Assembly (NCBI RefSeq): GCF_003032475.1
Contig: NZ_CP028369.1
Coordinates: 2,852,001 to 2,916,000, forward strand
Direction of reading: 5' to 3'
DNA length: 64,000 nt
DNA from: Streptomyces sp. P3
Lineage (GTDB): Bacteria > Actinomycetota > Actinomycetes > Streptomycetales > Streptomycetaceae
Positions 5,172-61,310 of this stretch are shown piece by piece. A model generated the notes under the pieces. That model did not search any database. It saw nothing but the letters and a program-made list of their open reading frames with translations, and was not told where the DNA came from. The position numbers and the translations under genes were made by a program. Each line of letters begins with the position of its first letter. Position 1 is the stretch's first letter.

Positions 5172-6590
5172 GTGAGCAACTCGCAGTACCTCGAGTACGG
5201 GCCGTACGGCGGCGGTACGCAGGTCGACCTGCACAACGCCGAGACGGTCGCGTACGGCGTGTACGCGGCGCCCGGGACGTACGACGACACGTACCGCCCC
5301 TCGTACGAGGAGTACGCGACGGACGACGCGCGCGACGCGTACGAAACGCAGCCGATCCCGGCCGGGCCCGCGCGGACCCTGCAGCTGACCGAGCCGGTGC
5401 TCCCCCTCCCCCTCCCCCTCTCCCAACCGCCGCTGCCGGCGCAGGGCGTGGGGCGGCGGGCCGAGCGCCGGCGCCGGGCCCGTGACGCCGAGCGCCCGGA
5501 GTCCGCGATGCGCCGGCTGCTCCCGCAGGCCCTCGTCGTCGCGTTCCTGGCCGGCGGCACCACCGCGTTCGTCGCCGACGACAAGGCGGTGGAGCTGACC
5601 GTCGACGGCAGGCCGCGCACCCTGCACACCTTCGCCGACGACGTGGGCGAACTCCTCGCGGACGAGGGTGTGCGGGTGGGCGAGCACGACGTGGTCGTAC
5701 CCGCCCCGGGCTCGGACCTCGCGAGCGGCGACGAGATCACCGTGCACTACGGGCGGCCCGTCCGGCTCACCCTGGACGGGCAGCCGCAAGAGTGGTGGAC
5801 GACCGCGCACACCGTCGAGGAGGCGCTCCGGCAGCTCGGGGTGCGGGCGGAGGGCGCGTACATGTCCGTGTCGCGCTCCCAGCGCATCGGACGCGCGGGG
5901 CTGGCGATGGACGTGCGCACCGAGCGCTCCGTGACCGTCATGGCCGACGGCCGGGCCCGCACCATCCGCACCAACGCGGCGACCGTGCGCGAGGCGGTCG
6001 CGGCGGCCGGGATCACCCTGCGCGGCGAGGACACCACCTCCGTGGAGCCCGGCAGTTTCCCGCGCGACGGCCAGACGGTCACGGTGCTGCGGATCACCGG
6101 CTCCCAGGAGGTCCGCGAGGAGCAGATCCCGTTCGGCGTACGCCGCACCGCGGACCCGTCGCTGTTCCAGGGCGCGGAGGTGGTGGAGCGGGCCGGTCGG
6201 CCCGGACTGCGGCGCATCACCTACGCCCTGCGCTCCGTCAACGGCGTGCGGCAGAAGCCCCGGCGGCTCCGCGAGGAGATCGTGCGCGAGCCGCGCGAGC
6301 AGCGGGTGAGGGTCGGGACGAAGCCGCTGCCGTCGTCGGTGCGGGGAGCGGACGGCCTGGACTGGCGCGGCCTCGCGGCCTGTGAGTCGGGCGGCCGGCC
6401 CGGCGCCGTCGACCCGTCGGGCACCTACGGCGGGCTCTACCAGTTCGACACCCGAACCTGGCAGAGCCTCGGCGGCCGCGGACGGCCGCAGGACGCCCCG
6501 GCGGCGGAGCAGACGTACCGCGCGAAGAAGCTCTACGTGCGACGCGGCGCGAGCCCCTGGCCGCACTGCGGACGGCGCCTGCACGGCTGA
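5172..6590 (+). CDS. rpfB: Resuscitation-promoting factor RpfB (DUF348-G5-Rpf)
   Basis: A 472-residue secreted or membrane-anchored muralytic protein. It has a long Tyr/Asp-rich cytoplasmic N-terminus, one hydrophobic segment near residues 115-135, three DUF348-type repeats (starting ELTVDG, RLTLDG and SVTVMADG), a G5 domain (about 300-375) and a C-terminal Rpf transglycosylase domain beginning GLDWRGLAACESGG. E405 in ACESGG is the expected catalytic glutamate. Paired cysteines (CESGG and the final WPHCGRR) could form the family disulfide. Rpf proteins cleave peptidoglycan to trigger germination or resuscitation. The GTG at 5172 follows GGAGTGTCGG. A proline/leucine run (LPLPLPL) lies ahead of the anchor. 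Confidence 0.93.
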   Translation: MSNSQYLEYGPYGGGTQVDLHNAETVAYGVYAAPGTYDDTYRPSYEEYATDDARDAYETQPIPAGPARTLQLTEPVLPLPLPLSQPPLPAQGVGRRAERRRRARDAERPESAMRRLLPQALVVAFLAGGTTAFVADDKAVELTVDGRPRTLHTFADDVGELLADEGVRVGEHDVVVPAPGSDLASGDEITVHYGRPVRLTLDGQPQEWWTTAHTVEEALRQLGVRAEGAYMSVSRSQRIGRAGLAMDVRTERSVTVMADGRARTIRTNAATVREAVAAAGITLRGEDTTSVEPGSFPRDGQTVTVLRITGSQEVREEQIPFGVRRTADPSLFQGAEVVERAGRPGLRRITYALRSVNGVRQKPRRLREEIVREPREQRVRVGTKPLPSSVRGADGLDWRGLAACESGGRPGAVDPSGTYGGLYQFDTRTWQSLGGRGRPQDAPAAEQTYRAKKLYVRRGASPWPHCGRRLHG

Positions 6591-6643
6591 CCGCGTCGCA
6601 CGGCGGCGGAGAGGGCGGCGGTGCCGCGGTCGGACCCGGGTCA

Positions 6644-6697
6644 CGGCGGCCGCCCCGGATACGGCGGCCGCCCCGGATACGGCGGTCGCCCCGGATA
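6644..6697 (+). repeat. Three tandem 18-bp units between rpfB and rsmA
   Basis: Three head-to-tail copies of CGGCGGCCGCCCCGGATA (the third has one C-to-T change) begin at 6644, 6662 and 6680. Each holds the self-complementary core GGCGGCCGCC, so each unit can fold on itself. The array is bracketed by two copies of GGGTCACGGCGG. It ends about 60 bp before the rsmA start and may act as terminator DNA after rpfB. An open frame reads it as repeated GRPGY, but that frame has no good start. Confidence 0.7.
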
Positions 6698-6758
6698 CGG
6701 CGCCCCCGGGTCACGGCGGCGGTGCGGGGGCGTCCTCGCAGCCCCGTACCCTTGTTCC

Positions 6759-7634
6759 GTGAGCAGCAGCCCCCCTTCCGACGCCCTCCTGAGCCCCGCC
6801 GACATCCGTGAGCTGGCGGCCGTCCTCGGCGTGCGGCCCACCAAGCAGCGCGGCCAGAACTTCGTGATCGACGGGAACACCGTCCGCCGGATCGTCCGCA
6901 CCGCGGGGGTGCGGCCCGACGACGTGGTCGTCGAGGTCGGTCCCGGGCTCGGCTCCCTCACTCTCGCGCTGCTGGAGGTCGCCGACCGGGTCACGGCCGT
7001 CGAGATCGACGACGTCCTGGCCGGCGCGCTGCCCGCGACGATCGCCGCCCGCATGCCGCGGCGCGCGGAGCGGTTCGCGCTGGTGCACTCCGACGCGATG
7101 CACGTGACCGAGCTGCCGGGCCCCGCTCCCACCGCTCTCGTCGCGAACCTGCCGTACAACGTGGCCGTGCCCGTGCTGCTGCACATGCTGGAGATGTTCC
7201 CGAGCATCGAACGCACCCTGGTCATGGTCCAGTCGGAGGTCGCCGACCGGCTCGCCGCGGGCCCCGGCTCGAAGGTGTACGGCGTGCCGTCCGTGAAGGC
7301 GAACTGGTACGCCGACGTCAAGCGGGCCGGCGCCATCGGCCGCAACGTCTTCTGGCCGGCGCCGAACGTGGACAGCGGGCTGGTCTCGCTGGTGCGGCGG
7401 TCCGAGCCGATCAGGACCACGGCCTCCCGGCGCGAGGTCTTCGCCGTCGTCGACGCGGCCTTCGCCCAGCGCCGCAAGACCCTGCGGGCCGCGCTCGCCG
7501 GATGGGCGGGGTCGGCGGCCGCCGCCGAAACGGCCCTGGTCGCCGCCGGGGTGTCCCCGCAGGCGCGCGGCGAGGCCCTCACCGTCGAGGAGTTCGCCCG
7601 GATCGCCGAGCACCGGCAGAAGGACTCCGCGTGA
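6759..7634 (+). CDS. rsmA: 16S rRNA dimethyladenosine transferase RsmA (KsgA)
   Basis: A 291-residue enzyme that dimethylates A1518 and A1519 in helix 45 of 16S rRNA using SAM. Signatures: [10 protein letters not shown], the SAM-binding [20 protein letters not shown], the catalytic [15 protein letters not shown], and [12 protein letters not shown]. The frame opens at 6621, but that upstream part only translates the 18-bp repeats, so the GTG at 6759 ([13 protein letters not shown]) was taken as the start. The stop overlaps the ispE GTG by four bases (GTGA), implying translational coupling. Confidence 0.95.
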
Positions 7635-50284: not shown

Positions 50285-53200
50285 ATGAGCCTGCACGGTC
50301 TGCTCGACGCCGTCGTCAAGGACGCCGCCCTCGCGGAAGCCATCCCCGCGGCCGCCGACGGCAACCGCATGCACGTCGACCTGGTCGGTCCTCCGGCGGC
50401 CCGCCCCTTCGCGATCGCCGCCCTCGCCCGCGAGACCGGCCGCACCGTGCTCGCGGTGACGGCCACCGGCCGCGAGGCCGAGGACCTCGCCGCCGCCCTG
50501 CGCTCGCTGCTCCCGCCGGACGGCGTCGTCGAGTACCCCTCCTGGGAGACGCTCCCGCACGAGCGCCTCAGCCCGCGCAGCGACACCGTGGGCCGCCGCC
50601 TCGCCGTGCTGCGCCGGCTGGCCCACCCGCGCCCCGACGACCCGGAGACCGGCCCCGTCTCGGTGGTCGTCGCACCCGTCCGCTCGGTGCTCCAGCCGCA
50701 GGTCAAGGGACTCGGCGACCTGGAACCGGTGGCGCTGCGCTCCGGTGGGACCGCCGACCTGGACGAGATCGTCGAAGCGCTCGCCGCAGCCGCCTACGCG
50801 CGCGTGGAACTCGTCGAGAAGCGCGGCGAGTTCGCCGTCCGCGGCGGCATCCTGGACGTGTTCCCGCCCACCGAGGAACACCCGCTGCGCGTCGAGTTCT
50901 GGGGCGACGACGTCGAGGAGATCCGCTACTTCAAGGTCGCCGACCAGCGCTCCCTGGAGGTCGCCGAGCACGGCCTGTGGGCCCCGCCCTGCCGTGAACT
51001 GCTGCTGACGGACGACGTGCGCACCCGTGCGGGCGTCCTCGCCGAACAGCACCCCGAGCTGGGCGAACTGCTCGGGAAGATCGCTGAGGGCATCGCGGTC
51101 GAGGGCATGGAGTCCCTGGCCCCGGTGCTCGTCGACGACATGGAGCTGCTGATCGACGTCCTGCCCAAGGGCGCGATGGCCGTCGTCTGCGACCCGGAGC
51201 GGGTGCGCACGCGTGCGGCCGACCTGGTGGCCACCTCGCACGAGTTCCTGCAGGCCTCCTGGGCGGCGACGGCCGGAGGCGGCGAGGCGCCCATCGACGT
51301 CGGCGCGGCCTCCCTGTGGTCGATCGCCGACGTGCGCGAACACGCGCGCGAGCTGGACATGATGTGGTGGTCGGTGTCGCCGTTCGCGGCCGACGACGAA
51401 CTGGACGACGCCACGCTGAAGCTCGGCATGCACGCACCCGAGACCTACCGCGGCGACACCGCGAAGGCCCTCGCGGACACCAAGGGCTGGCTGGCCGACG
51501 GCTGGCGTGTCGCCTTCGTCACCGAGGCGCACGGCCCGGCCGCCCGCACGGTCGAGGTGCTCGGCGGCGAGGGCGTCGCAGCCCGTCTCGACGGCGACCT
51601 GACCGGGCTGAGCCCCTCCGTCGTGCACGTCTCCTGCGGCTCGATCGACTACGGGTTCGTCGACCACGCGCTGCGCCTCGCCGTCCTCACCGAGACCGAC
51701 CTGACCGGCCAGAAGGCGGCCGGCAAGGACGGCGCGCGCATGCCCGCGCGCCGCCGCAAGACCATCGACCCGCTCACCCTGGAGGCCGGCGACTACATCG
51801 TCCACGAGCAGCACGGCGTGGGCCGCTACATCGAGATGGTGCAGCGCACCGTCCAGAGCGCCACGCGTGAGTACCTGGTCGTGGAGTACGCGCCCGCCAA
51901 GCGCGGCCAGCCCGGCGACCGCCTCTACATCCCCACCGACCAGCTGGAACAGATCACCAAGTACGTCGGCGGCGAGGCGCCCACGCTGCACCGGCTCGGC
52001 GGCGCCGACTGGACCAAGACCAAGGCGCGCGCGAAGAAGGCCGTCAAGGAGATCGCCGCCGACCTGATCAAGCTGTACAGCGCGCGGATGGCGGCCCCCG
52101 GCCACGCCTTCGGCACCGACACCCCCTGGCAGCGCGAACTGGAGGACGCCTTCCCCTACGCGGAGACGCCCGACCAGCTCACCACCATCGCCGAGGTCAA
52201 GGACGACATGGAGAAGACGGTCCCCATGGACCGCCTGATCTGCGGCGACGTCGGCTACGGCAAGACGGAGATCGCGGTGCGCGCCGCCTTCAAGGCCGTC
52301 CAGGACGGCAAGCAGGTCGCCGTCCTCGTGCCGACGACGCTGCTGGTGCAGCAGCACTTCGGCACGTTCAGCGAGCGGTACGCGCAGTTCCCGGTGAAGG
52401 TCCGCGCCCTCTCCCGCTTCCAGACGGACGCGGAGGCGAAGGCCACCCTGGAGGGACTGCGCGAGGGTTCCGTGGACGTCGTCATCGGCACCCACCGGCT
52501 GTTCTCCTCCGAGACGAAGTTCAAGGACCTCGGACTGGTCATCGTCGACGAGGAGCAGCGCTTCGGCGTCGAGCACAAGGAGCAGCTGAAGAAGCTCCGC
52601 GCGAACGTGGACGTCCTGACGATGTCGGCCACCCCGATCCCGAGGACCCTGGAGATGGCGGTGACGGGCATCCGCGAGATGTCGACGATCACCACGCCCC
52701 CGGAGGAGCGCCACCCGGTGCTCACCTTCGTCGGCCCCTACGAGCAGAAGCAGATCGGCGCCGCCGTCCGCCGCGAACTGCTGCGCGAGGGCCAGGTCTT
52801 CTACATCCACAACCGGGTCGAGTCGATCGACCGGGCGGCCGCGCGACTGCGCGAGATCGTCCCCGAGGCGCGCATCGCCACCGCGCACGGCCAGATGTCG
52901 GAGTCGGCGCTGGAGCAGGTCGTCGTCGACTTCTGGGAGAAGAAGTTCGACGTGCTCGTCTCGACGACGATCGTCGAGTCCGGCATCGACATCTCCAACG
53001 CCAACACGCTGATCGTGGAGCGCGGCGACACCTTCGGCCTGTCCCAGCTGCACCAGTTGCGCGGCCGGGTGGGCCGGGGCAGGGAGCGCGGCTACGCCTA
53101 CTTCCTCTATCCGCCGGAGAAGCCGCTCACGGAGACCGCCCACGAGCGGCTCGCCACCATCGCCCAGCACACCGAGATGGGCGCGGGCATGTACGTGGCG

Positions 53201-53818
53201 ATGAAGGACCTGGAGATCCGCGGCGCGGGCAACCTGCTCGGCGGCGAGCAGTCCGGCCATATCGCGGGCGTCGGCTTCGACCTGTACGTGCGGATGGTCG
53301 GCGAGGCCGTCGCGGACTACCGGCGTCAGCTGGAGACCGGCGAGATCGAGGAGGAGCCGCCGCTCGAGGTCAAGATCGAGCTGCCGGTCGACGCGCACGT
53401 CCCGCACGACTACGCGCCGGGCGAGCGGCTGCGCCTGCAGGCCTACCGGGCCATCGCCTCCGCCAACTCGGAGGACGACGTCCGGGCGGTCCGTGAGGAA
53501 CTCGTCGACCGGTACGGCAAGTTGCCCGAGCCGGTGGAGAACCTGCTGCTGGTGGCGGGACTGCGGATGCTGGCACGCGCGTGCGGCGTCGGCGAGATCG
53601 TGCTCCAGGGCGCCAACATCCGCTTCGCGCCGGTGGAGTTGCGCGAGTCGCAGGAACTGCGCCTGAAGCGGCTGTACCCGGGTTCCGTCATCAAGCCCGC
53701 CGCGCACCAGGTCCTCGTACCCCGCCCGAAGACCGCGAAGGTCGGCGGCAAGCCGCTGGTCGGACGGGAACTCCTCGGCTGGGTGGGCGAGTTCCTGGCG
53801 ACGGTGCTCGGCTCTTGA
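50285..53818 (+). CDS. mfd: Transcription-repair coupling factor Mfd
   Basis: A 1177-residue SF2 translocase that removes stalled RNA polymerase and recruits UvrA to lesions. The N-terminal UvrB-like part ends with EFAVRGGILDVFPPTEEHPLRVEFWGDDVEEIR. The RNAP-interacting domain follows (about 490-560, ...AGDYIVHEQHGVGRYIEM). Helicase motifs: GDVGYGKTEIAVRAAFKA (Walker A), IVDEEQRFGVEHKE (DEEQ), TMSATPIPRTL, and IVESGIDISNANTLIVERGD through QLRGRVGRGRERGYAYFLYP. A C-terminal TRCF domain completes it. The length matches the family. The ATG at 50285 was chosen from a much longer open frame that overlaps the upstream permease gene. Confidence 0.96.
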   Translation: MSLHGLLDAVVKDAALAEAIPAAADGNRMHVDLVGPPAARPFAIAALARETGRTVLAVTATGREAEDLAAALRSLLPPDGVVEYPSWETLPHERLSPRSDTVGRRLAVLRRLAHPRPDDPETGPVSVVVAPVRSVLQPQVKGLGDLEPVALRSGGTADLDEIVEALAAAAYARVELVEKRGEFAVRGGILDVFPPTEEHPLRVEFWGDDVEEIRYFKVADQRSLEVAEHGLWAPPCRELLLTDDVRTRAGVLAEQHPELGELLGKIAEGIAVEGMESLAPVLVDDMELLIDVLPKGAMAVVCDPERVRTRAADLVATSHEFLQASWAATAGGGEAPIDVGAASLWSIADVREHARELDMMWWSVSPFAADDELDDATLKLGMHAPETYRGDTAKALADTKGWLADGWRVAFVTEAHGPAARTVEVLGGEGVAARLDGDLTGLSPSVVHVSCGSIDYGFVDHALRLAVLTETDLTGQKAAGKDGARMPARRRKTIDPLTLEAGDYIVHEQHGVGRYIEMVQRTVQSATREYLVVEYAPAKRGQPGDRLYIPTDQLEQITKYVGGEAPTLHRLGGADWTKTKARAKKAVKEIAADLIKLYSARMAAPGHAFGTDTPWQRELEDAFPYAETPDQLTTIAEVKDDMEKTVPMDRLICGDVGYGKTEIAVRAAFKAVQDGKQVAVLVPTTLLVQQHFGTFSERYAQFPVKVRALSRFQTDAEAKATLEGLREGSVDVVIGTHRLFSSETKFKDLGLVIVDEEQRFGVEHKEQLKKLRANVDVLTMSATPIPRTLEMAVTGIREMSTITTPPEERHPVLTFVGPYEQKQIGAAVRRELLREGQVFYIHNRVESIDRAAARLREIVPEARIATAHGQMSESALEQVVVDFWEKKFDVLVSTTIVESGIDISNANTLIVERGDTFGLSQLHQLRGRVGRGRERGYAYFLYPPEKPLTETAHERLATIAQHTEMGAGMYVAMKDLEIRGAGNLLGGEQSGHIAGVGFDLYVRMVGEAVADYRRQLETGEIEEEPPLEVKIELPVDAHVPHDYAPGERLRLQAYRAIASANSEDDVRAVREELVDRYGKLPEPVENLLLVAGLRMLARACGVGEIVLQGANIRFAPVELRESQELRLKRLYPGSVIKPAAHQVLVPRPKTAKVGGKPLVGRELLGWVGEFLATVLGS

Positions 53819-53982: not shown

Positions 53983-54168
53983 CTACGGGTTCTCGGGCCG
54001 GTCCTCGTCCATCCCCATGCGCTCGTGCAGCTGCTGCTGCCCGGAGTCGACCTGGGACTCGTACTTGTTGCCCGTCTTCTCGTTGACCCGCCGCTCCGCG
54101 GCGTCGGACATGTCCCTGGCTTTGTGCTGTGCCGCCTTGTTGCTCTTGAACCTGTCGAAGATGCCCAT
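53983..54168 (-). CDS. Small MT0933-type antitoxin-like protein
   Basis: A 61-residue charged protein: MGIFDRFKSNKAAQHKARDM at the start, then VNEKTGNKYESQVDSGQQQL. The MGIFD.FK start and the KTG.KY...VD.G motif match the short actinobacterial family named after mycobacterial MT0933 (Rv0909), annotated as antitoxin-like. No toxin partner is adjacent, so it may be a general small stress protein rather than a true antitoxin. The ATG at 54168 has GGGAAGGGAG upstream. Confidence 0.72.
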   Translation of the reverse strand: MGIFDRFKSNKAAQHKARDMSDAAERRVNEKTGNKYESQVDSGQQQLHERMGMDEDRPENP

Positions 54169-54358
54169 GCAGAGCTCCCTTCCCGGAGGTGACTCTCCAC
54201 CGACGATATTCCCGTGATGTACGAGATGCCCACTTGGGGCCGTTGTGGTCTGGACCTCCCGGCTGCCTCCGAACGCCCCTCGCTAGGGTGTGTGCCAGTC
54301 CGCGCCAGGGGAATCCGCCCTGTGCGGGGTGGGTAGCGGCCAGGCAGGGGAGGGGCGC

Positions 54359-54620
54359 GTGAGGCGTCTGAGGGGTGGGGCGGCGGTCGCCGTCGCGTTG
54401 GTGTGCGCCGTGACGGCGGCGGGCTGCAAGGAACAGACCTCCGGCGCGGGCTCCGGCGGCGCGGGCGCCACGGCGGGCGCCGGAAAGGCGGGCGGCGGGG
54501 CGGCCCTCGCGGCGGCCGAGTCGCTGCCGGTGAAGGGCCGCGCCCCCAAGACCGGTTACGACCGCGAGCAGTTCGGTTCCGCCTGGGCGGACACCGACTC
54601 CAACTCCTGCGACACTCGCG
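54359..54620 (+). pseudogene. HNH-nuclease lipoprotein gene, 5' fragment (interrupted by the transposon)
   Basis: The first 87 codons of a secreted HNH protein. A lipoprotein signal ends VCAVTAAGC (lipobox), a Gly/Ala linker follows, then GRAPKTGYDREQFGSAWADT and SNSCDTR. The coding sequence stops making sense at 54621, where TTATCTCTAT begins the inserted element; the frame then ends at a TGA at 54692-54694. Joining 54620 to 60832 restores an uninterrupted 246-residue frame (SCDTR-DDILKRDLEKVKF...). The GTG at 54359 has GGGGAGGGG upstream. The intact protein would be a surface lipoprotein with a DHV-type HNH nuclease fold (GmrSD C-terminal/DUF1524-like). Confidence 0.9.
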
Positions 54621-54630
54621 TTATCTCTAT
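54621..54630. repeat. Left terminal inverted repeat of the transposon
   Basis: TTATCTCTAT, exact inverse of 60816-60825. Directly preceded by the core ACTCGCG. Confidence 0.85.
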
Positions 54631-54701
54631 GCTTCGCCGAGCGATCGAGCCGTTTGCGCAGTTCATAGGGGGAGTGGTGGGTTGTGCTCATTGAGAGGGA
54701 C

Positions 54702-55475
54702 ATGAGGCACAGGGGCGCTGGCAACACACGATTCCTTCGCGTCGCAGTGGTGGCAGCCGCCGCCGCGCTCCTTGTCTCGGGATGCGAAGGTCTCGACGAA
54801 GGCGCCTCCTCGACCGGATCGGGGCCCGCTGCACCGGATGGACGGGCGGTCAGTCCGCTCAACAATCCGGACGGTACGAAACCGGGACTCGCACCCGTGA
54901 CGACGGACGCGGACCAGGCTGCCGCCCGCAAGCTCATAGAGGAGGTTTCCACCAAGGGGCGGGGGCCCAAGACGGGCTACGCCCGGGACAAGTTCGGCTA
55001 TGCCTGGATGGACACGGCCGACGGAGTGCCGCTCGCGAGGAACGGATGTGACACGCGAAACGATCTCATCCACCGCGACGGTCAGAACCTCCGCCTCCGA
55101 GCCGGCTCCGACTGTGTGGTCACCGCGATGACGCTGCACGATCCGTACACCGGGACGACCATCGAATGGCGCAAGGCGAAGGCGTCCGAGGTACAGATAG
55201 ACCATGTGGTGCCGTTGTCGTACAGCTGGCAGATGGGCTCTTCGCGCTGGCCGGTGAGCAAGCGCAAGCAGCTCGCGAACGACGTGCTCAATCTGATCCC
55301 GGTCGAGGGGCGCGCCAACAGCGCCAAGGGCGATTCCGGACCCGCCTCCTGGCTGCCGCCGAACAAGCAGATCAGGTGCGCGTACGCGGTCAGGTTCGCC
55401 CAGGTCGCCGTCAAGTACGAGATGCCGGTGACGATGGCGGACAAGGCGATGATGCTGAAGCAGTGCCAGGGCTGA
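54702..55475 (+). CDS. HNH-nuclease lipoprotein carried by the transposon (homologue of the interrupted gene)
   Basis: A 257-residue secreted protein. The lipoprotein signal ends AAALLVSGC. Then follow KTGYARDKFGYAWMDT, RNGCDTRNDLIHRD, the HNH core VQIDHVVPLSYSW, ANDVLNLIPVEGRANSAKGD and WLPPNKQIRC. Each block has its counterpart in the disrupted host gene (KTGYDREQFGSAWADT, SNSCDTRDDILKRD, VDIDHVVALSDAW, ANDPLNLLAVDASTNRSKGD, WVPPNKAYRC). All presumed catalytic residues are present. At the site matching the insertion point the codons differ (TGT GAC ACG CGA AAC GAT against TGC GAC ACT CGC GAC GAC), so the ACTCGCG core is absent there. The ATG at 54702 has GAGAGG upstream; a GTG at 54684 would lengthen the signal. 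Confidence 0.88.
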   Translation: MRHRGAGNTRFLRVAVVAAAAALLVSGCEGLDEGASSTGSGPAAPDGRAVSPLNNPDGTKPGLAPVTTDADQAAARKLIEEVSTKGRGPKTGYARDKFGYAWMDTADGVPLARNGCDTRNDLIHRDGQNLRLRAGSDCVVTAMTLHDPYTGTTIEWRKAKASEVQIDHVVPLSYSWQMGSSRWPVSKRKQLANDVLNLIPVEGRANSAKGDSGPASWLPPNKQIRCAYAVRFAQVAVKYEMPVTMADKAMMLKQCQG

Positions 55476-55521
55476 CAGCGTCCTGCGGCCTGAGGAAACG
55501 CGTTCGATCCAGGGCTGCCGG

Positions 55522-56667
55522 ATGCGTACGCTCCATGCCGTGGCTGATCGCATAGAGAAGATCGTGACGAAGCTGCCGGGTTTGAAGAGCGTCACCGACC
55601 TCTGGAAGGTGGCCGACCGTAGTCTCGCGGAGGGGGACGCTGCCTTCCTCGCGGACCTCGGCATCGCGCTCGCCGGGACCTACGGCTCCGACCCCAGGCC
55701 GATCTGGCAGTACAGGAGCGTTTTCGACCACCTGCTCCGGCTGCTGGCCACCACCCCCGGCCCCGGGAACGTCGCCCAGGCGCTGCGGCTGGTTTCCTCG
55801 GTGGAGGCCGCCGACAGGAAGCTGGACCGCTACGCAGCCTCGTTGCTGGCCTCCAGCCAACCGGCAGAGGAACTCGCCGCGGCGTTCACCGGGAACGCCT
55901 CTGAGGAACTGCGTGCCTGCCTGGTCCATGAGCTCGTGCTCAGGGGCGTCGCAGTCGCGGAGACGCCGGGGATCGCAGGGTGGGCGACGTCGCCGCACTG
56001 GAAGCACCATCCGCTGGGATGGCTGCCGTTGGCGTTGTCGGACGTGGAGGGGCAGCCGGATCTGCCGAGCTACAGCACCCGGGGCAGCAGCCATTCGATG
56101 CCGTACGGCCCGTCGGAGAACGGTCGCGTGGCGGTCGAACGCGGGGCGCACGTGCCGCCGGTCGAGGAGACGACGACCCCTGCTGTTGCCAAGGGCATCA
56201 GCGCGGCCGTGGCGAACTGGGCAGAGGACTCGAACGGCCGGGTCGAGGCACGAGTCTTCGCCCTGGCAGCTTCTCTGGACATCGAATCGGTACCGAGCGC
56301 GTTGCTGGCGTTGGGGCTGGAGTGCCTGAAGGATTCGGGGAGAAAGACTGCCTTCTCGGTCGTGGTCTGTCCGCCAGACCAGGCATGGCGGGTGCTCTTT
56401 GCCGCCGCCTCCTCGGGAGGGGCCTACAACTCCGGTGCTCGCGGTGCCTACGGCCGACTGGCCGCGTGGCAGTCCCTGGCCTGCCTCGCCGGGGCCACGG
56501 AGGGTGTCCCTGCCGAGGTGGTCGAGGCACGTGTACGGGAGTGTGCCTGGTACGGCTTCGACGTCGACACCAAGTGGTTCGAGCGCGTGGCCTGGGACAT
56601 CGGCCTGGCCTCGGTCTCTCTGGACGGACGACGACTTGCCGTGTTGGCCGCGACGGACACCGACTGA
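55522..56667 (+). CDS. Cargo protein of unknown function (probably DUF6183 family)
   Basis: A 381-residue, largely helical soluble protein with no signal peptide. Recognisable stretches are DLGIALAGTYGSDPRPIWQY, then RVFALAASLDIESVPSALLA, WRVLFAAASSGGAYNSGARG, CAWYGFDVDTKWFERVAWDI and the C-terminal RLAVLAATDTD. These resemble, from memory, the actinobacterial DUF6183 family, whose role is unknown; this assignment needs a profile search. No catalytic motif stands out. It lies 46 bp after the HNH gene and points towards tnpC; a hairpin separates them. The ATG at 55522 was used; a GTG at 55540 is an alternative. Confidence 0.7.
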   Translation: MRTLHAVADRIEKIVTKLPGLKSVTDLWKVADRSLAEGDAAFLADLGIALAGTYGSDPRPIWQYRSVFDHLLRLLATTPGPGNVAQALRLVSSVEAADRKLDRYAASLLASSQPAEELAAAFTGNASEELRACLVHELVLRGVAVAETPGIAGWATSPHWKHHPLGWLPLALSDVEGQPDLPSYSTRGSSHSMPYGPSENGRVAVERGAHVPPVEETTTPAVAKGISAAVANWAEDSNGRVEARVFALAASLDIESVPSALLALGLECLKDSGRKTAFSVVVCPPDQAWRVLFAAASSGGAYNSGARGAYGRLAAWQSLACLAGATEGVPAEVVEARVRECAWYGFDVDTKWFERVAWDIGLASVSLDGRRLAVLAATDTD

Positions 56668-56721
56668 GCAAGCCCCGCAATTGCCTCGGTGAAGCTTGAC
56701 CACTGGGCAGACGTTCCTCGT

Positions 56722-56760
56722 GGCTGTCCGGCTGACGGCATGGGAGCCGGTCGGACAGCC
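56722..56760. terminator. Hairpin between the cargo gene and tnpC
   Basis: GGCTGTCCG pairs perfectly with CGGACAGCC; an alternative inner stem CCGGCT/AGCCGG overlaps it. It lies between two convergent genes and can stop both transcripts. Confidence 0.7.
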
Positions 56761-56785
56761 CCGAGACGCGGTCGTGCAGAGCGGG

Positions 56786-57385
56786 CTACGGGGACGGAAC
56801 GGCCCGCATGGCGCGGCGGAGACTGGCCCGTGCGGCCGTGAGATCGTCTTCCGTCTCACGCAGGCGGCCCTCCAGGGCGGCGATCCGCTCCCTGGCCTCT
56901 GACAATTCCTCGTTCAGGGCGGTGTTCCGCTGCTCCAGTTGTTGCACCCGCTGGATCAGCTCGTTCTGGTCCACTCCGTCCAACTCGGCACCGAGAGACA
57001 GCCGAACCCGGTTCAGGAGCCGGTCGCGTTCCCTCTTGAGATCCTTGATCTCTTCGCGTGCCAGGGCGAGGTCCGTCCGCAGCCCGGCAGGAGACACCTG
57101 TCGCGCCGCCGGAACCGAGGGGTCCTGGCGTACGTGTTCTCGCTGAGCGATGATGCCGTCCTGAACGGCTTGGTGCACCTGGGGCTGGTTGTAGACGAAC
57201 CACGGGGACACCGCCGCGTCCCGCGCCACCTGGCTGACGGTGATGCGCCGTCCCGAGCGGAGAAGGCCGTCCACTGCATCGATCGCCCGCCTGGTCTTCT
57301 CCTCGCTGTCTTTGGCACGGCTGGCGCGCAGGCGCTCGACCCGTGCGTTCCGGTCATTGCTGCCGGAAGGGGCGGGACTTTTCAT
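56786..57385 (-). CDS. tnpC: TnpC-like transposition protein (DUF6262 type)
   Basis: A 199-residue protein. The N-terminus is basic, with an HTH-like stretch (RRITVSQVARDAAVSPWFVYNQPQVHQAV). From about residue 115 it is one long coiled coil (LAREEIKDLKRERDRLLNRVRLSLG, then QQLEQRNTALNEELSEARERIAALEGRLRETEDDL). This matches the small third protein of Tn554-type elements, which influences orientation and efficiency of transposition rather than cutting DNA. The ATG at 57385 overlaps the tnpB stop (ATGA). Confidence 0.82.
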   Translation of the reverse strand: MKSPAPSGSNDRNARVERLRASRAKDSEEKTRRAIDAVDGLLRSGRRITVSQVARDAAVSPWFVYNQPQVHQAVQDGIIAQREHVRQDPSVPAARQVSPAGLRTDLALAREEIKDLKRERDRLLNRVRLSLGAELDGVDQNELIQRVQQLEQRNTALNEELSEARERIAALEGRLRETEDDLTAARASLRRAMRAVPSP

Positions 57386-59583
57386 TCGGGGCTCCGTGTC
57401 GTCAGTGCCTGCAAGGGGACGAAGGCCGCTGCGGATCGGGCCTTGCGCAGCTCGCGCGAGGCGGATTCGACGACGGCCCGCTCCTCGGGAGGCAGCGCGT
57501 TGAGCTTCCTCCGCATCTCGTCGGCCGACTTCGAATACGCACGGATCTGGTCGTCGAGATTGCGGACGACCCAGTCCGCGGTCTCCATCGCCAGAGCGGC
57601 CTCCTTGTCGGCCCGCAGGTCCGCGATCTGCTGTTCCAGGGCCGGTAGGTAGGAGGGATCGGGCCGGTAGAAGTCGCATCCGGCGCACTGGAAGCGGATG
57701 CGGCAGTGCCCCCCTCCGGCCTTGACGTTGCTCGGTTCGGTGCAGCCGCCGTAGGGAACCGCGACGCTCTCCACTTCGTAGGCCAGTGGGTCGCTGAAGC
57801 CACGGGATTCTCCGTGCCGGTCGACGGCGAGTGCCGCGACCGTCCGCACGGCTTCCTGTTTCCGGCTGAGGGAGACCTTGTAGTACCCCATGGTGACGTC
57901 CAGCGACCGGTGATCCATGAGTTCCCGGAGGACGTCCGGCCGGGTTCCGGCGTCCGCGTGGCGCTGGGCGTAGGCGTGGCGGAAGCCGTAGGGAACGATC
58001 TTGGTGCGGTCGTATGCGAGTGGTTCGCCGTTGTTGTCCAGGCGCTCGTCCCAGATGCTGGGGATGAGCTCGTCGACCCAGATGCGGAAGATGCGACTGC
58101 AGAACTGTGCCGAGGTGAGGTGGCGACGGCGGGGGCGGTTGCGTTGACCGGGGGAGGGGAACAGCCACTGGGTGCAGGCCGGTACCGGAGGGAGAGCCTC
58201 CAGTTCCTTCTGCCAAGCCTCGATCTCCCGGGCGGTGCTCTCGGAGAGCGGCAGGCGGCGGCCATGTCGGCGCCGTTTGTGGTTGTCGTAGATCAGCGTC
58301 GGTTTGCCGTCGATCCACTCCAGGCAGTCTCGCCGTAGGCTGGTGACCTCGCCCGGTCGGCGACCTGTGTCCCTCAGGACTGTGTAGACCACCTGGTACA
58401 TGCGGGCGAAGTCAGCAGTGCTCCAACCGCCGTTTTCGTAGGCCGTGGAAGTGCCCAGCAGATCGATGTGCGCATCGAGTTGGGCGATGACATGCTCGGG
58501 AACTGCCCGGCCGATGTCGTCCTCAGTCACCTCGATCGCCGCGATGGTGTGAAAGCGGGGATTCACGGCGAACCCGCCGGGGATGTGGTCCATCATCCCG
58601 GCTTGCCGGGCGAACTCCAGGAACGCCCGCCAGCGTCGCAGCAGTGCTCGCCTGTGGCTCGTCGAGTGGTCGTGCCCGTCCTCGGGGCGTTTGGTGATGC
58701 GGAAGTGGTCCACTACGGCGTTCATGTCCGCCATCGACAGCCGATCAGGGTCGTCCCCCTCGGGGCGTTGAGACAGCGCGGCCGACGCGATTGTCGCGGC
58801 GTACACGGTCTGCCTCAGCTCCAGAACATCGGGTCGTGTAGCGCGCCCGTACTCCTTGACGAGTTCCCGCAGCCACGTCTGTCGTACGGGCCGGAAATCG
58901 ATCACACCATGAACGGCTTTGTACTTCCTGCCCCGACCTGCAGTGAGGCCCACCAGCGCGCATTCCCAGACGTCGCCCGAGGTGGGGTCGGCGCCTTCGA
59001 ACTCGGCCCGGGCACATCGGATGTGAAGGAGGACGCTATTGAGAACGCCTCTGGCAGCAGCGGGGAGTTCGGAGGAGAAGCCGGAGTCAAGGCTCAGGAG
59101 GGAGTCGAGCTCCTGCGGGAGGCTGGCCACGATGCGGCGCATGCGTTGAGGGACGAGGCTGATTCCGGCGTCGTCGCGTTGTTGAAGCCCATACAGAATC
59201 TCGTGTCGCACGGCCGGCGAAACCCGTGCCAGAGAGAACTGGGAGACCCCCGGCTTCACTCCGTCCGTGACGTTCGGCCGTCGACGAGCCACCACCGGGG
59301 CGTACGTCGTGTCGAAGTTCGCAGGGTTTCCCCTGAGCAGACGGGCCTTGCGGCAGGCGTCGCAGCGACTTCCATTACTTCCGACGTGCGTCGAGCAAGC
59401 CGCGACCACGCAGGTGAACACGTGGGTCGTCGGATTGTCTGGATCAGCTGTGAACAGTGCCTTGGCCGGATCCCATTCAGTCGTTCGCCAACCGGAAGCG
59501 AGGCGTTCTGCGAGGCAGGCGGACCAGGCGGTGAGCGCGGTTGAGGGCGAGGGGACCGTGACGAGGGCGGTGCTCGATGTCAT
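57382..59583 (-). CDS. tnpB: TnpB-like tyrosine recombinase
   Basis: A 733-residue recombinase with the large N-terminal DNA-binding part seen in TnpB of Tn554. A Cys cluster ([20 protein letters not shown]) near residue 60 may bind zinc. The catalytic domain has the Arg-I motif [19 protein letters not shown], the Lys-bearing beta-hairpin [15 protein letters not shown], the box [15 protein letters not shown] and the C-terminal [16 protein letters not shown] with the nucleophilic Tyr. A second Cys group ([20 protein letters not shown], then CAGCDFYRP) precedes a C-terminal coiled coil. It overlaps tnpA upstream and tnpC downstream by four bases each. Confidence 0.9.
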
Positions 59584-60701
59584 CGCGCGATTTCCAGGGT
59601 GAGGCTGTCGACGGCCGATCGAAGGTCCTCGTCCTGAGCGTGGAGATAGACAGCCGTGCTGGCCGACGACGCATGCCCCAGCAAGGTCTGTACGACATCG
59701 GGCGCCACGCCGCTGCGGATCCAGCGGGTTGCCGCTGTGTGCCGCATCATGTGCGGCCGGGCGCGCAGGCCGCAACGGTCACCGATGCGCTCGATGACCT
59801 GTTTCGCGTTCGAGTACGACATCGGACGGCCCGCCCAGCCGCCGACGAGATTCACGAATACGTAGTCACAGCCTGCCGCTCCGGGTACATCTTCCCGCTC
59901 GGCCAGATACTCGCGGTACCGGTGAACGGCGGTCTGAGCGAGGGGCACTGCACGGTGCCGGCCGGCCTTCGCACGTGCCCCGTTCTCGTTGTTCTGGCGG
60001 GGGCGGACGTGCAGGTGGGCGCCACCTGTCCGGCAGCCGAGGTGCGTGGAGTCGGGGAGCAGATGCATGTCCTCGCGCCGCAGTCCGAGGGCTTCGCCGA
60101 TACGGAGGCCCGCTTCCACCAGGACGGTCAGCAGCAGCCGGTCACGCGCAGTGTGAGCGGCGTCGATGACCTGCTCCGTCTGGACGCCGGTGAGCGTCTG
60201 TGGTGCCCGCTCGATCTCCGGCGCCTTCAGGACGCGGGCTTTGACCATCAGGTGCTGGCCGCCCTCGCCAGGATCGAAGCCGACCGGGGCGTGGGCGAGG
60301 AAGCGCGGCTCGCTGAGACGCGCCGCGACCTCGTGATCCACATGTCCCTGGACCGCGCAGTAGCGGAGGAACTCGCACACCGCGGTGAGTGTGGCGTTGA
60401 CCGTCTTGCCGGACGGAGGCCGCCCGTACTGGGTCGGTGTCCGTTCGACGTAGAACTTGAACAGACTCAAGTCCCCGAGCCGGACGGTCCTCCAGTCGAT
60501 GCCTCGATCCGCGCACCAGTTGAGGAAGCGGCCGATTCTGGGGATGTACGCGCGCTGTGTCTGTGGCGATCGACCGGCTCCGCGCAGATACAGGGAGAAC
60601 TCGCGGGCCTCGGGATGAGGCGCGTACGTCTCCTCGTCGACCAGGAGCCAGGTGATGTCGCCGGTGGTGGGCGATACGGCCTTCTCTGTGTGTAACGTCA
60701 T
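59580..60701 (-). CDS. tnpA: TnpA-like tyrosine recombinase
   Basis: A 373-residue integrase-family protein. The SAM-like core-binding domain ([30 protein letters not shown]) precedes the catalytic domain with [20 protein letters not shown] (Arg I), [19 protein letters not shown] (H-x-x-R) and [20 protein letters not shown] (His/Tyr). Length and order match TnpA of Tn554-type elements. It is first in the tnpABC operon; its ATG at 60701 lies 124 bp inside the right end of the element. Confidence 0.92.
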
Positions 60702-60733
60702 GGGATTTACTTCCTGTCTCCGATGTCACTCAT

Positions 60734-60794
60734 GTGCCTCATGGCGTGACTGATAACGGCGAGGGACAGGACTGGGTTACGGCTGTGCCTCATG
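60734..60794. repeat. Subterminal recombinase-site repeats, right end
   Basis: GTGCCTCATG occurs at 60734-60743 and 60785-60794. Its inverse, CATGAGGCAC, lies at 54701-54710 near the left end; the match extends to 12 bases for 54701-54712 against 60783-60794. The left copy starts 80 bp from its terminus and the inner right copy ends 82 bp from its own. These are likely recombinase arm-binding sites. The left copy contains the start codon of the cargo HNH gene. Confidence 0.65.
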
Positions 60795-60815
60795 TGCATC
60801 GCGTTGAGGAGGGAG

Positions 60816-60825
60816 ATAGAGATAA
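60816..60825. repeat. Right terminal inverted repeat of the transposon
   Basis: ATAGAGATAA, exact inverse of 54621-54630, immediately followed by the core CTCGCG and the resumed host coding sequence. Confidence 0.85.
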
Positions 60826-60831
60826 CTCGCG

Positions 60832-61310
60832 ACGACATCCTCAAGCGGGATCTGGAGAAGGTGAAGTTCACCGGCGGCGTCTGCAAGGTGTCCGCCGGGA
60901 TCCTGGAGTCGGATCCGTACTCGGGGAAGACCGTGACCTACCGGCGCGGCAGCAGCAAGGTCGACATCGACCATGTCGTCGCCCTCTCGGACGCCTGGCA
61001 GAAGGGCGCCAAGTACTGGGACGCCGCCAAGCGGATAGCGCTCGCCAACGACCCGCTCAACCTGCTGGCCGTCGACGCGAGCACCAACCGTTCCAAGGGG
61101 GACGGTGACACGGCGACATGGGTGCCGCCCAACAAGGCCTACCGCTGCACGTACGTCGCGGCGCAGGTCGCCGTGAAGAAGAAGTACCAGCTGTGGGTCA
61201 CCGCGGCGGAGAAGTCCGCGATGGAGAAGGTGCTGTCGGCCTGCCCCGGGCAGCGACTGCCCGTCGGGGGCAACCCGACCAAGGCTCCGGACCGCTTCCA
61301 CGCGGGGTGA
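60832..61310 (+). pseudogene. HNH-nuclease lipoprotein gene, 3' fragment (interrupted by the transposon)
   Basis: The C-terminal 159 codons of the gene begun at 54359: DDILKRDLEKVKFTGGVCKV, then the HNH core VDIDHVVALSDAWQKG, ANDPLNLLAVDASTNRSKGD, WVPPNKAYRC and a tail ending DRFHAG. An ATG at 60792 inside the element could allow translation of a leaderless fragment starting MCIALRREIEITRDD, without the lipoprotein signal, but no good ribosome-binding site is seen. Reading frame and amino-acid sequence continue exactly from residue 87 of the 5' fragment. Confidence 0.9.

Follow-up and report, generated by a model that had tools for sequence, protein, structure and literature searches.

The DNA analysed here, referred to as the window, is a 64,000-nt stretch of Streptomyces sp. 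P3 (contig NZ_CP028369.1, positions 2,852,001 to 2,916,000), the genome of which is a single contig of 9.85 Mb. It contains a transposon that splits a gene coding for an HNH lipoprotein and carries an intact HNH lipoprotein gene of its own, termed the rescue gene below. A base-for-base recheck showed the element to span 6,205 bp (54621-60825) and to have a perfect 10-bp inverted repeat at its termini (TTATCTCTAT at 54621-54630 on the left and ATAGAGATAA at 60816-60825 on the right). The disrupted gene, a member of the GmrSD_C family (PF07510), is split after codon 87. Its N-terminal part (87 codons; 54359-54620, plus strand) has CGC as the target Arg codon, while the displaced C-terminal part lies at 60826-61310 on the same strand, with its frame still open (GmrSD_C, E 5.5e-22). 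Joining 54359-54620 to 60832-61310, that is, deleting 54621-60831, gives a 246-aa frame. The element is flanked externally on both sides by a 6-bp direct repeat, CTCGCG; the left core (54615-54620) falls inside the Thr-Arg-Asp codons of a CDTRD motif and is the same as the right core (60826-60831). The original prediction, made from the letters of the window and a list of its open reading frames, had given the size of the element, its inverted ends, the split after codon 87 and the 246-residue frame, all of which were reproduced; the direct repeat was absent from it.

The rescue gene (54702-55475, plus strand) begins 81 bp inside the left end, as had been predicted, and codes for an intact HNH lipoprotein of 257 aa (GmrSD_C, E 1e-14; HNH_4, E 1.5e-7); an in-frame alternative start lies at 54684. 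The disrupted frame continues through the left end as VISMLRRAIEPFAQFIGGVVGCAH (54620-54694, plus strand) and reaches a stop codon 7 nt 5′ of the rescue start codon. A subterminal repeat, ACATGAGGCACAG (54700-54712, plus strand), overlaps this start codon and recurs in inverted orientation over 13 bp at 60783-60795 and over 11 bp at 60733-60743. Within the rescue gene, the segment corresponding to the attachment site (TGTGACACGCGAAACGATCT, 55047-55066, plus strand) still codes for CDTRND but is recoded.

Downstream of the rescue gene lies a DUF6183 passenger gene (55522-56667, plus strand), which occupies a second slot of variable content. The remaining genes of the element are on the minus strand: tnpC (56786-57388; DUF6262), tnpB (57382-59583), coding for a long tyrosine recombinase of 733 aa, and tnpA (59580-60701), coding for a tyrosine recombinase of 373 aa. 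DUF6262 was the sole match of TnpC, in which no recombinase domain was found, so that the element does not have the three adjacent tyrosine recombinases of RIT elements. The target gene adjoins mfd, coding for the transcription-repair coupling factor (50333-53818, plus strand; TIGR00580, 1050 bits against a cut-off of 800). A search of 54150-54720 for sigma-70-like promoters gave no match, a result that is not informative for Streptomyces. The rescue protein had no sequence relative among solved structures at E 0.1, and a PADLOC search for defence systems returned weak matches only.

Recurrence of the arrangement in Streptomyces

When 392 Streptomyces genomes were searched with TnpB, 77 contained a match at E up to 1e-20; in six, the window's own genome included, the identity was 78–100%. 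A scan of named genomes with the same protein found 14 loci, all in Streptomyces, and an order-level search of 293 genomes added three further genomes, one with a new element. These searches were blind to the target gene. Once duplicates had been dropped (L047, L048, L050, L148 and L150, in favour of L042, L034, L036, L040 and L038, respectively), there remained 15 elements with recombinase genes, namely that of the window and those at loci L033-L043, L049, L051 and L149. All 15 lie inside an HNH lipoprotein gene and have an HNH lipoprotein gene at their left end. The 14 found outside the window, each with a TnpB match that covers 300 residues or more and is at least 78% identical, share the arrangement as far as the sequence reaches, L041 being cut by a contig end and L043 having lost its right half. 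The features that relatives had been predicted to show, an HNH lipoprotein inside the same ends and an HNH gene split at the same codon, were found among these elements.

A search of the 392 genomes with the left end of the element, also blind to the target, gave 11 matches. All 11 were in HNH genes and ten were accompanied by an intact rescue open reading frame (ORF). The total came to 20 Streptomyces insertions, 15 with recombinase genes and five remnants, all at the same Thr-Arg codons of HNH genes. In 19 of them the slot at the left end is occupied by an intact HNH gene; L156 is the exception. The gene mfd was present in the fetched stretch for 17 of the 20 (it was not seen in L035, which meets a contig end, or in L037 and L156). 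The remnants, which lack a tnpABC set, are among the matches of the left-end search; four of them (L101, L151, L152 and L153) have intact rescue ORFs of 257–260 codons. The original prediction had regarded an HNH cargo gene at this position without recombinases as evidence against it. Such loci do occur, but all four still have the left end together with the severed N-terminal portion of the target, and they are therefore read here as decayed insertions.

A mismatch-scored genome search was followed up for rows with up to two mismatches, plus G082 and G232; the other rows with three mismatches occur in a reversed control too. Loci L107, L110, L111, L154 and L155 gave no match to any query used. 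Locus L046 has a 44-residue piece of TnpB at 89% identity, with no HNH gene within the stretch searched.

Target site and core sequences

In all 20 cases the insertion point follows the codons of a Cys-Asp/Gly-Thr-Arg motif. Thirteen Streptomyces elements could be read at both ends, and in every one of them the left and right cores were identical (the right end is not readable in L041, L043 or the remnants, which are omitted from this count). Six core types were found, and the probability of such matching by independent pairing is about 1e-7. Cores of different elements vary at the wobble bases of codons and in the first nucleotide of the codon that follows. The pattern of the uninterrupted site, with rescue genes included, was found in 280 of the 392 genomes, mostly once per genome. 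A strict requirement for CGC in the target was considered and rejected, as L041 (CGG), L149 (CGT) and L156 (AGG) have been used.

Junction between the split gene and the rescue gene

With the ATG or GTG behind an invariant GAGAGG taken as the start, every one of the 19 rescue genes begins 81 bp inside the left end; this GAGAGG was unchanged in all 20 insertions. The frame of the host gene stays open across the left end for 23–24 foreign codons, reaching a stop codon 7 or 10 nt short of the rescue start (14/14 elements and 6/6 further insertions). The element thus does not complete the host frame as the same protein. The position of the host-frame stop, just 5′ of the rescue start, suggests translational coupling between the two genes. 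The tail added to the host frame accumulates more synonymous changes in that frame than in the others, which lends weak support to the idea that the frame continuation is kept as a conserved peptide.

Recoding of the attachment site in the rescue gene

Among the 19 rescue genes, ten use CGA for the Arg of the motif and nine use CGG; none has CGC, which is the codon in 17 of the 20 used targets. Among the matches listed, CGC was present in 98 of 149 uninterrupted sites, a set made up of 148 listed matches plus G072 (CGA, counted as non-C), leaving out G124 (a rescue gene) but still containing G272, which belongs to remnant L101 as its rescue gene, as well as genes of the rescue type from G013 and G099. 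The amino acid motif is kept in the rescue copies, apart from a Thr to Ser change in two of the 19. At the DNA level, the 19 rescue sites differ from the nearest of 13 used targets by 3–5 mismatches per 20 bp, while the used targets differ among themselves by 0–2. Thirty uninterrupted genes showed 0–3 mismatches to the same 13 targets, both cases of three mismatches (L067 and L093) being members of rescue clades. The differences between rescue genes and used targets are mostly silent.

Synonymous divergence between rescue and uninterrupted genes was scanned in windows along 14 rescue and 22 uninterrupted genes, and peaked at the site (codon window -4 to +3, D 0.52, the highest value, against a mean of 0.25). 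Eight of these 22 genes (L099, L102-L106, L108 and L109) had been fetched for their odd-looking sites, a choice that works against the recoding hypothesis. When the three rescue lineages were tested separately, using the 19 rescue genes and 14 uninterrupted genes not picked for odd sites, synonymous divergence at codons -4 to 6 was raised in each (permutation p 5e-5, 0.0012 and 0.027, in a test that treats codons as independent), and the contiguous windows scoring at least as high as the site numbered 1 of 97, 4 of 92 and 8 of 79, by lineage. Loci L067 and L093 were excluded from both analyses as members of rescue clades. The rescue lineage of L041 and L151, filled separately, is also recoded at the site, with Thr changed to Ser. 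Selection against self-insertion would be the simplest cause of this recoding. The repeated use of the site that had been proposed is not supported with regard to the rescue copy, which, being recoded at the attachment site, does not look re-usable.

Lineages, selection and fate of the rescue gene

In a tree of the C-terminal domain, 14 rescue genes fell at three places among chromosomal relatives; those of the four remnants and of L149 were assigned to the same three types by their motif. The TnpB tree does not follow these lineages. The sister pairs formed by the window element with L041 and by L036 with L049 (both 100/100) carry different HNH lineages, even though the TnpB proteins of the window element and L041 are 95% identical, and the HNH lineage of L039 is unlike that of the six other members of its TnpB clade (100/100). 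Because of this conflict, the HNH gene is considered to have been exchanged at least three times. Its slot was nevertheless filled in all 15 recombinase-bearing elements, while the content of the second slot varies: DUF6183 was found in seven insertions and TPR-like or other genes elsewhere. The second-slot gene of L033 is a TPR gene by Pfam; the other passengers that are not DUF6183 were labelled from reading their translations.

The median dN/dS values within the three rescue lineages were 0.112, 0.167 and 0.099, the last coming from one pair. The rescue genes of the four remnants, compared with the nearest element copy, gave values of 0.05–0.18 in each case. The rescue genes, those of the remnants included, are under purifying selection.

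At two further loci, both adjoining mfd and both assessed by eye, host and rescue sequences seem to be combined. In L093/L098 the N-terminus is of the host type and the C-terminal part of the rescue type, followed downstream by what resembles the beginning of a DUF6183 gene; in L067/L097 a gene of the rescue type is joined to the 5′ region of the host gene. These look like loci from which recombination removed the element while leaving its allele behind. At L100 (G171; 6053-7406), a host-type HNH gene with a partial C-terminus is followed by a rescue-like gene, with no recombinase match.

Relatives in Rhodococcus and more distant elements

Elements with a TnpB 51% identical to that of the window (el2) were found on Rhodococcus plasmids. 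They have the same arrangement, split their target at the same codon and carry an HNH rescue gene. In none of the four loci read (L168-L171, three of them near-copies) is the left core the same as the right, in contrast to the matching cores of the Streptomyces elements. A second Rhodococcus lineage, with a TnpA 26% identical to that of the window, inserts at an Asp-His-Val (DHV) motif of HNH genes and has its own HNH gene aboard. In three of its loci (L169, L170 and L174) the TGA of the host frame overlaps the rescue ATG (GTGATG), and the rescue protein has Glu-His-Val at the DHV motif. In L168, L169 and L170, two different tnpABC elements lie in tandem in one HNH gene, at two motifs and each with its own HNH gene.

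On a plasmid of Rhodococcus erythropolis KB1 (L174), the left flank of the element is the rescue gene of the first lineage (96.6% identical over residues 1–147), while the right flank is a different HNH fragment (38%). A rescue element lies nested in the rescue gene of another (L174:9610-10901), and the annotated 'hypothetical protein' there is a truncated gene that ends on the start of the next. The plasmid loci L173 (M. adipatum), L175 and L176 gave no HNH match; helicase genes were not searched for in these three.

For 19 of the 77 genomes in which TnpB had a match, a total of 20 stretches were fetched. Beyond the 15 elements, eighteen loci of the TnpB searches (L044-L046 and L052-L066), with lower identity or decayed recombinases, did not show the arrangement in the stretch searched. 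Two of them, with a TnpB of about 43% identity (L061:4663-17836 and L064:989-13271), are inserted at a QGL-RSH site of a helicase gene with helicase-associated repeats. In these, the C-terminal ~390 residues of the helicase are re-encoded in frame and the old 3′ part is displaced to the right end. No split target plus rescue gene, of either the HNH or the helicase kind, was seen in the stretches searched for L053, L055-L058, L060, L062, L063 and L065, although L058 contains a helicase fragment; in L059 a helicase gene adjoins tnpC, the split of a target there being unproven. L044-L046, L052 and L066 are divergent or decayed relatives with no HNH gene in the stretch searched, and the stretch for L054 was too short to judge. 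The idea that every tnpABC element follows the same rescue logic was thus rejected for those examined. Two adjacent, divergent HNH proteins are encoded at least 4 kb beyond tnpA in L063 (16131-18549). In L056 (7776-11618), a near-identical segment of at least about 0.9 kb is duplicated around tnpB; both L056 and L060 contain repeated ORFs.

Interpretation

From the sequences compared, we consider it probable that the element is a Tn554-like transposon with a coupled and apparently self-immune replacement of its target HNH gene. The tnpABC element inserts at the Cys-Asp/Gly-Thr-Arg motif of an HNH lipoprotein gene, mostly beside mfd. Ribosomes ending the truncated host frame might then re-initiate on the rescue gene, which would therefore take over the promoter and the dose of the gene it replaces, while the recoding would shield the rescue gene from the element's own recombinases. 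The host would retain a working nuclease lipoprotein; the element would therefore be tolerated in a conserved gene at little cost, and could supplant the allele already present. The tnp genes may subsequently be lost, with the rescue gene staying as the resident gene. Such a course of events would account for the intact and split HNH lipoprotein genes seen side by side in these genomes.

A broader proposal is that this would be a natural disrupt-and-rescue mobile element. Its insertion would destroy a conserved gene at a codon motif that is under constraint, and in return the element would provide an entire replacement gene, recoded for the most part silently and hence resistant to the recombinase, which would be expressed from the signals of the disrupted gene. 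Each invasion would then swap the resident allele for that of the element, and this would happen in at least two divergent tnpABC lineages, at the CDTR and DHV motifs of one nuclease family, the plasmid locus L174 being a case of one lineage inside the rescue gene of the other. In our judgement the chances of this being correct in full are about even.

Several observations weigh against these proposals. With respect to the target, the remnant L156 has its left end inside a third, 34%-similar HNH gene and its rescue gene is gone. The used targets of L041, L149 and L156 do not have CGC as the Arg codon, and the frequency of CGC does not differ significantly between targets and uninterrupted sites (p 0.12). 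Since CGG, CGT and AGG targets exist, the Arg wobble position would be insufficient for immunity and several positions would be needed. As for the recoding, the three rescue lineages amount to about three independent observations, the permutation test assumes that codons are independent, the site is not the single highest window in the smallest lineage, and codon divergence is somewhat raised over the entire 5′ part of the gene; besides, the uninterrupted genes were collected with a pattern modelled on the target, which may have missed more divergent ones. As for the junction, the +81 start was our choice among in-frame alternatives at +63 and elsewhere, other forward frames are also open across the left end of the 14 elements (the second in four, the third in 11), and the tail peptide appears weakly constrained (305 synonymous versus 789 non-synonymous codon differences). 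Among the Rhodococcus relatives, el2 has a 309-bp leader and its host frame stops early, and a relative in R. koreensis (L172) occupies a DHV site without an intact HNH cargo.

Other explanations can be set against the coupled replacement of the target gene. The HNH gene might be an ordinary passenger that is useful by itself to the element or the host, as a nuclease against competitors or incoming DNA, with the HNH target a relic of the element's birthplace and the rescue incidental. The name GmrSD_C comes from restriction enzymes, the gene could have been picked up from next to the insertion when the element arose, and loss of the HNH gene may be costless, as 112 of the 392 Streptomyces genomes lack the site pattern, although that pattern is strict. 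A mere passenger, however, would not be expected to fill its slot in 15 of 15 elements through at least three exchanges while the second slot changes, and the fixed 81-bp leader with its frame continuation, as well as the concentration of the recoding at the attachment site, also speak against it; we regard this explanation as unlikely. The place of the recoding bears in the same manner on the possibility, which seems to us slightly less likely still, that recoding is unrelated to the recombinase and serves to lower the DNA identity between rescue and target genes, preventing deletion of the element by homologous recombination. Recombination between rescue and host genes does seem to occur, to judge from the L093/L098 chimera and from L067/L097, where a rescue-type gene is joined to the host 5′ region, but the excess synonymous divergence peaks at the attachment site and not over the shared 3′ region. 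That two tandem HNH paralogues exist by chance, with a transposon in one of them, is hardly credible. Adjacent HNH homologues would look alike in a single genome, but fourteen other elements and four remnants have the same order, spacing and codon, and where a genome contains the site pattern it usually does so only once. This explanation was rejected on account of that recurrence and of the target-blind left-end search.

Comparison with known systems

The element has the gene set of Tn554-like transposons, with tnpA, tnpB and tnpC in the same order and orientation as judged by domains and layout, and it shares their high site specificity, all 20 insertions (and all 11 of the target-blind search) being at the same HNH motif. 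Tn554 produces no target duplication and has a donor core at its right end, whereas the two cores of the Streptomyces elements are identical; the element is for this reason named Tn554-like, and not a Tn554.

Tn552-II, a staphylococcal Tn554-like tnpABC element, disrupts a yolD-like gene on the chromosome and CDS40 on a plasmid, and a circular intermediate has been detected by PCR; in the part of the article available, a rescue role is suggested for the target-gene-like gene (tgl) that it carries (Wan et al. 2025, PMC12486829). The view in the original prediction that no such system was known to be described was therefore too strong. Both systems combine tnpABC with a homologue of the gene disrupted, which in Streptomyces is intact in 19 of 20 insertions. 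The tgl gene, however, holds a copy of the att site (i-att2), while the rescue genes described here have a recoded site, 3–5 mismatches away from the nearest of the 13 used targets. In Tn552-II, moreover, the donor att enters at the right end and the ends differ, in contrast to the identical cores of 13/13 Streptomyces elements; one element at two sites is described there, as against the 20 insertions found here. The frame-coupled leader, the target family and the phylum also set the Streptomyces system apart (PMC12486829).

Actinobacterial transposons related to Tn554 likewise pair a long tyrosine recombinase with one of normal length, and some families also have a TnpC-like partner; the part of that article available mentions neither a target gene nor a homologue of one (Van Houdt et al. 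2012, PMC3414803). Strand-biased circularizing integrative elements share with Tn554 and with the present element the two tyrosine recombinases (one of them large), the site specificity, the 6-bp core and the short inverted ends, according to the available part of their description (Idola et al. 2023, PMC10214605). They and Tn554 leave a donor-derived 6-bp footprint at one end, whereas the Streptomyces elements have matching cores; the differing cores of the Rhodococcus el2 elements are as published for Tn554 (PMC10214605). No counterpart of their second gene, tfp (PMC10214605), was seen here between tnpA and tnpB. A literature search by titles and the openings of abstracts, with subscription papers and preprints mostly outside its scope, found among the papers listed none on an element that targets HNH genes or carries a recoded rescue gene.

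The insertions described here allow several aspects of such a system to be compared. With 20 insertions and three rescue lineages, the possible self-immunity by silent recoding, the translational hand-over and the fate of the rescue gene after loss of the recombinases could all be measured. Site-specific elements usually use sites where loss is harmless, or repair the end of a gene. Some integrative elements and prophages restore the 3′ or the 5′ end of the gene they enter and so spare its function; the more distant Streptomyces elements L061 and L064 likewise restore a 3′ end, that of a helicase gene. Such elements supply part of a gene, in frame at the junction, whereas the present element brings a complete second gene that has a start codon of its own, and this, if the proposed reading is correct, would offer a transposon a route to replace a chromosomal allele. 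Synthetic cleave-and-rescue and home-and-rescue gene drives also inactivate a useful gene while providing a rescue copy that is recoded and resistant. Those are nuclease systems of eukaryotes, while the present case is a bacterial transposon known from sequence, for which no population drive is claimed. With its complete, coupled replacement gene, apparently recoded against its own recombinase, the element would parallel, in nature, the synthetic disrupt-and-rescue design.

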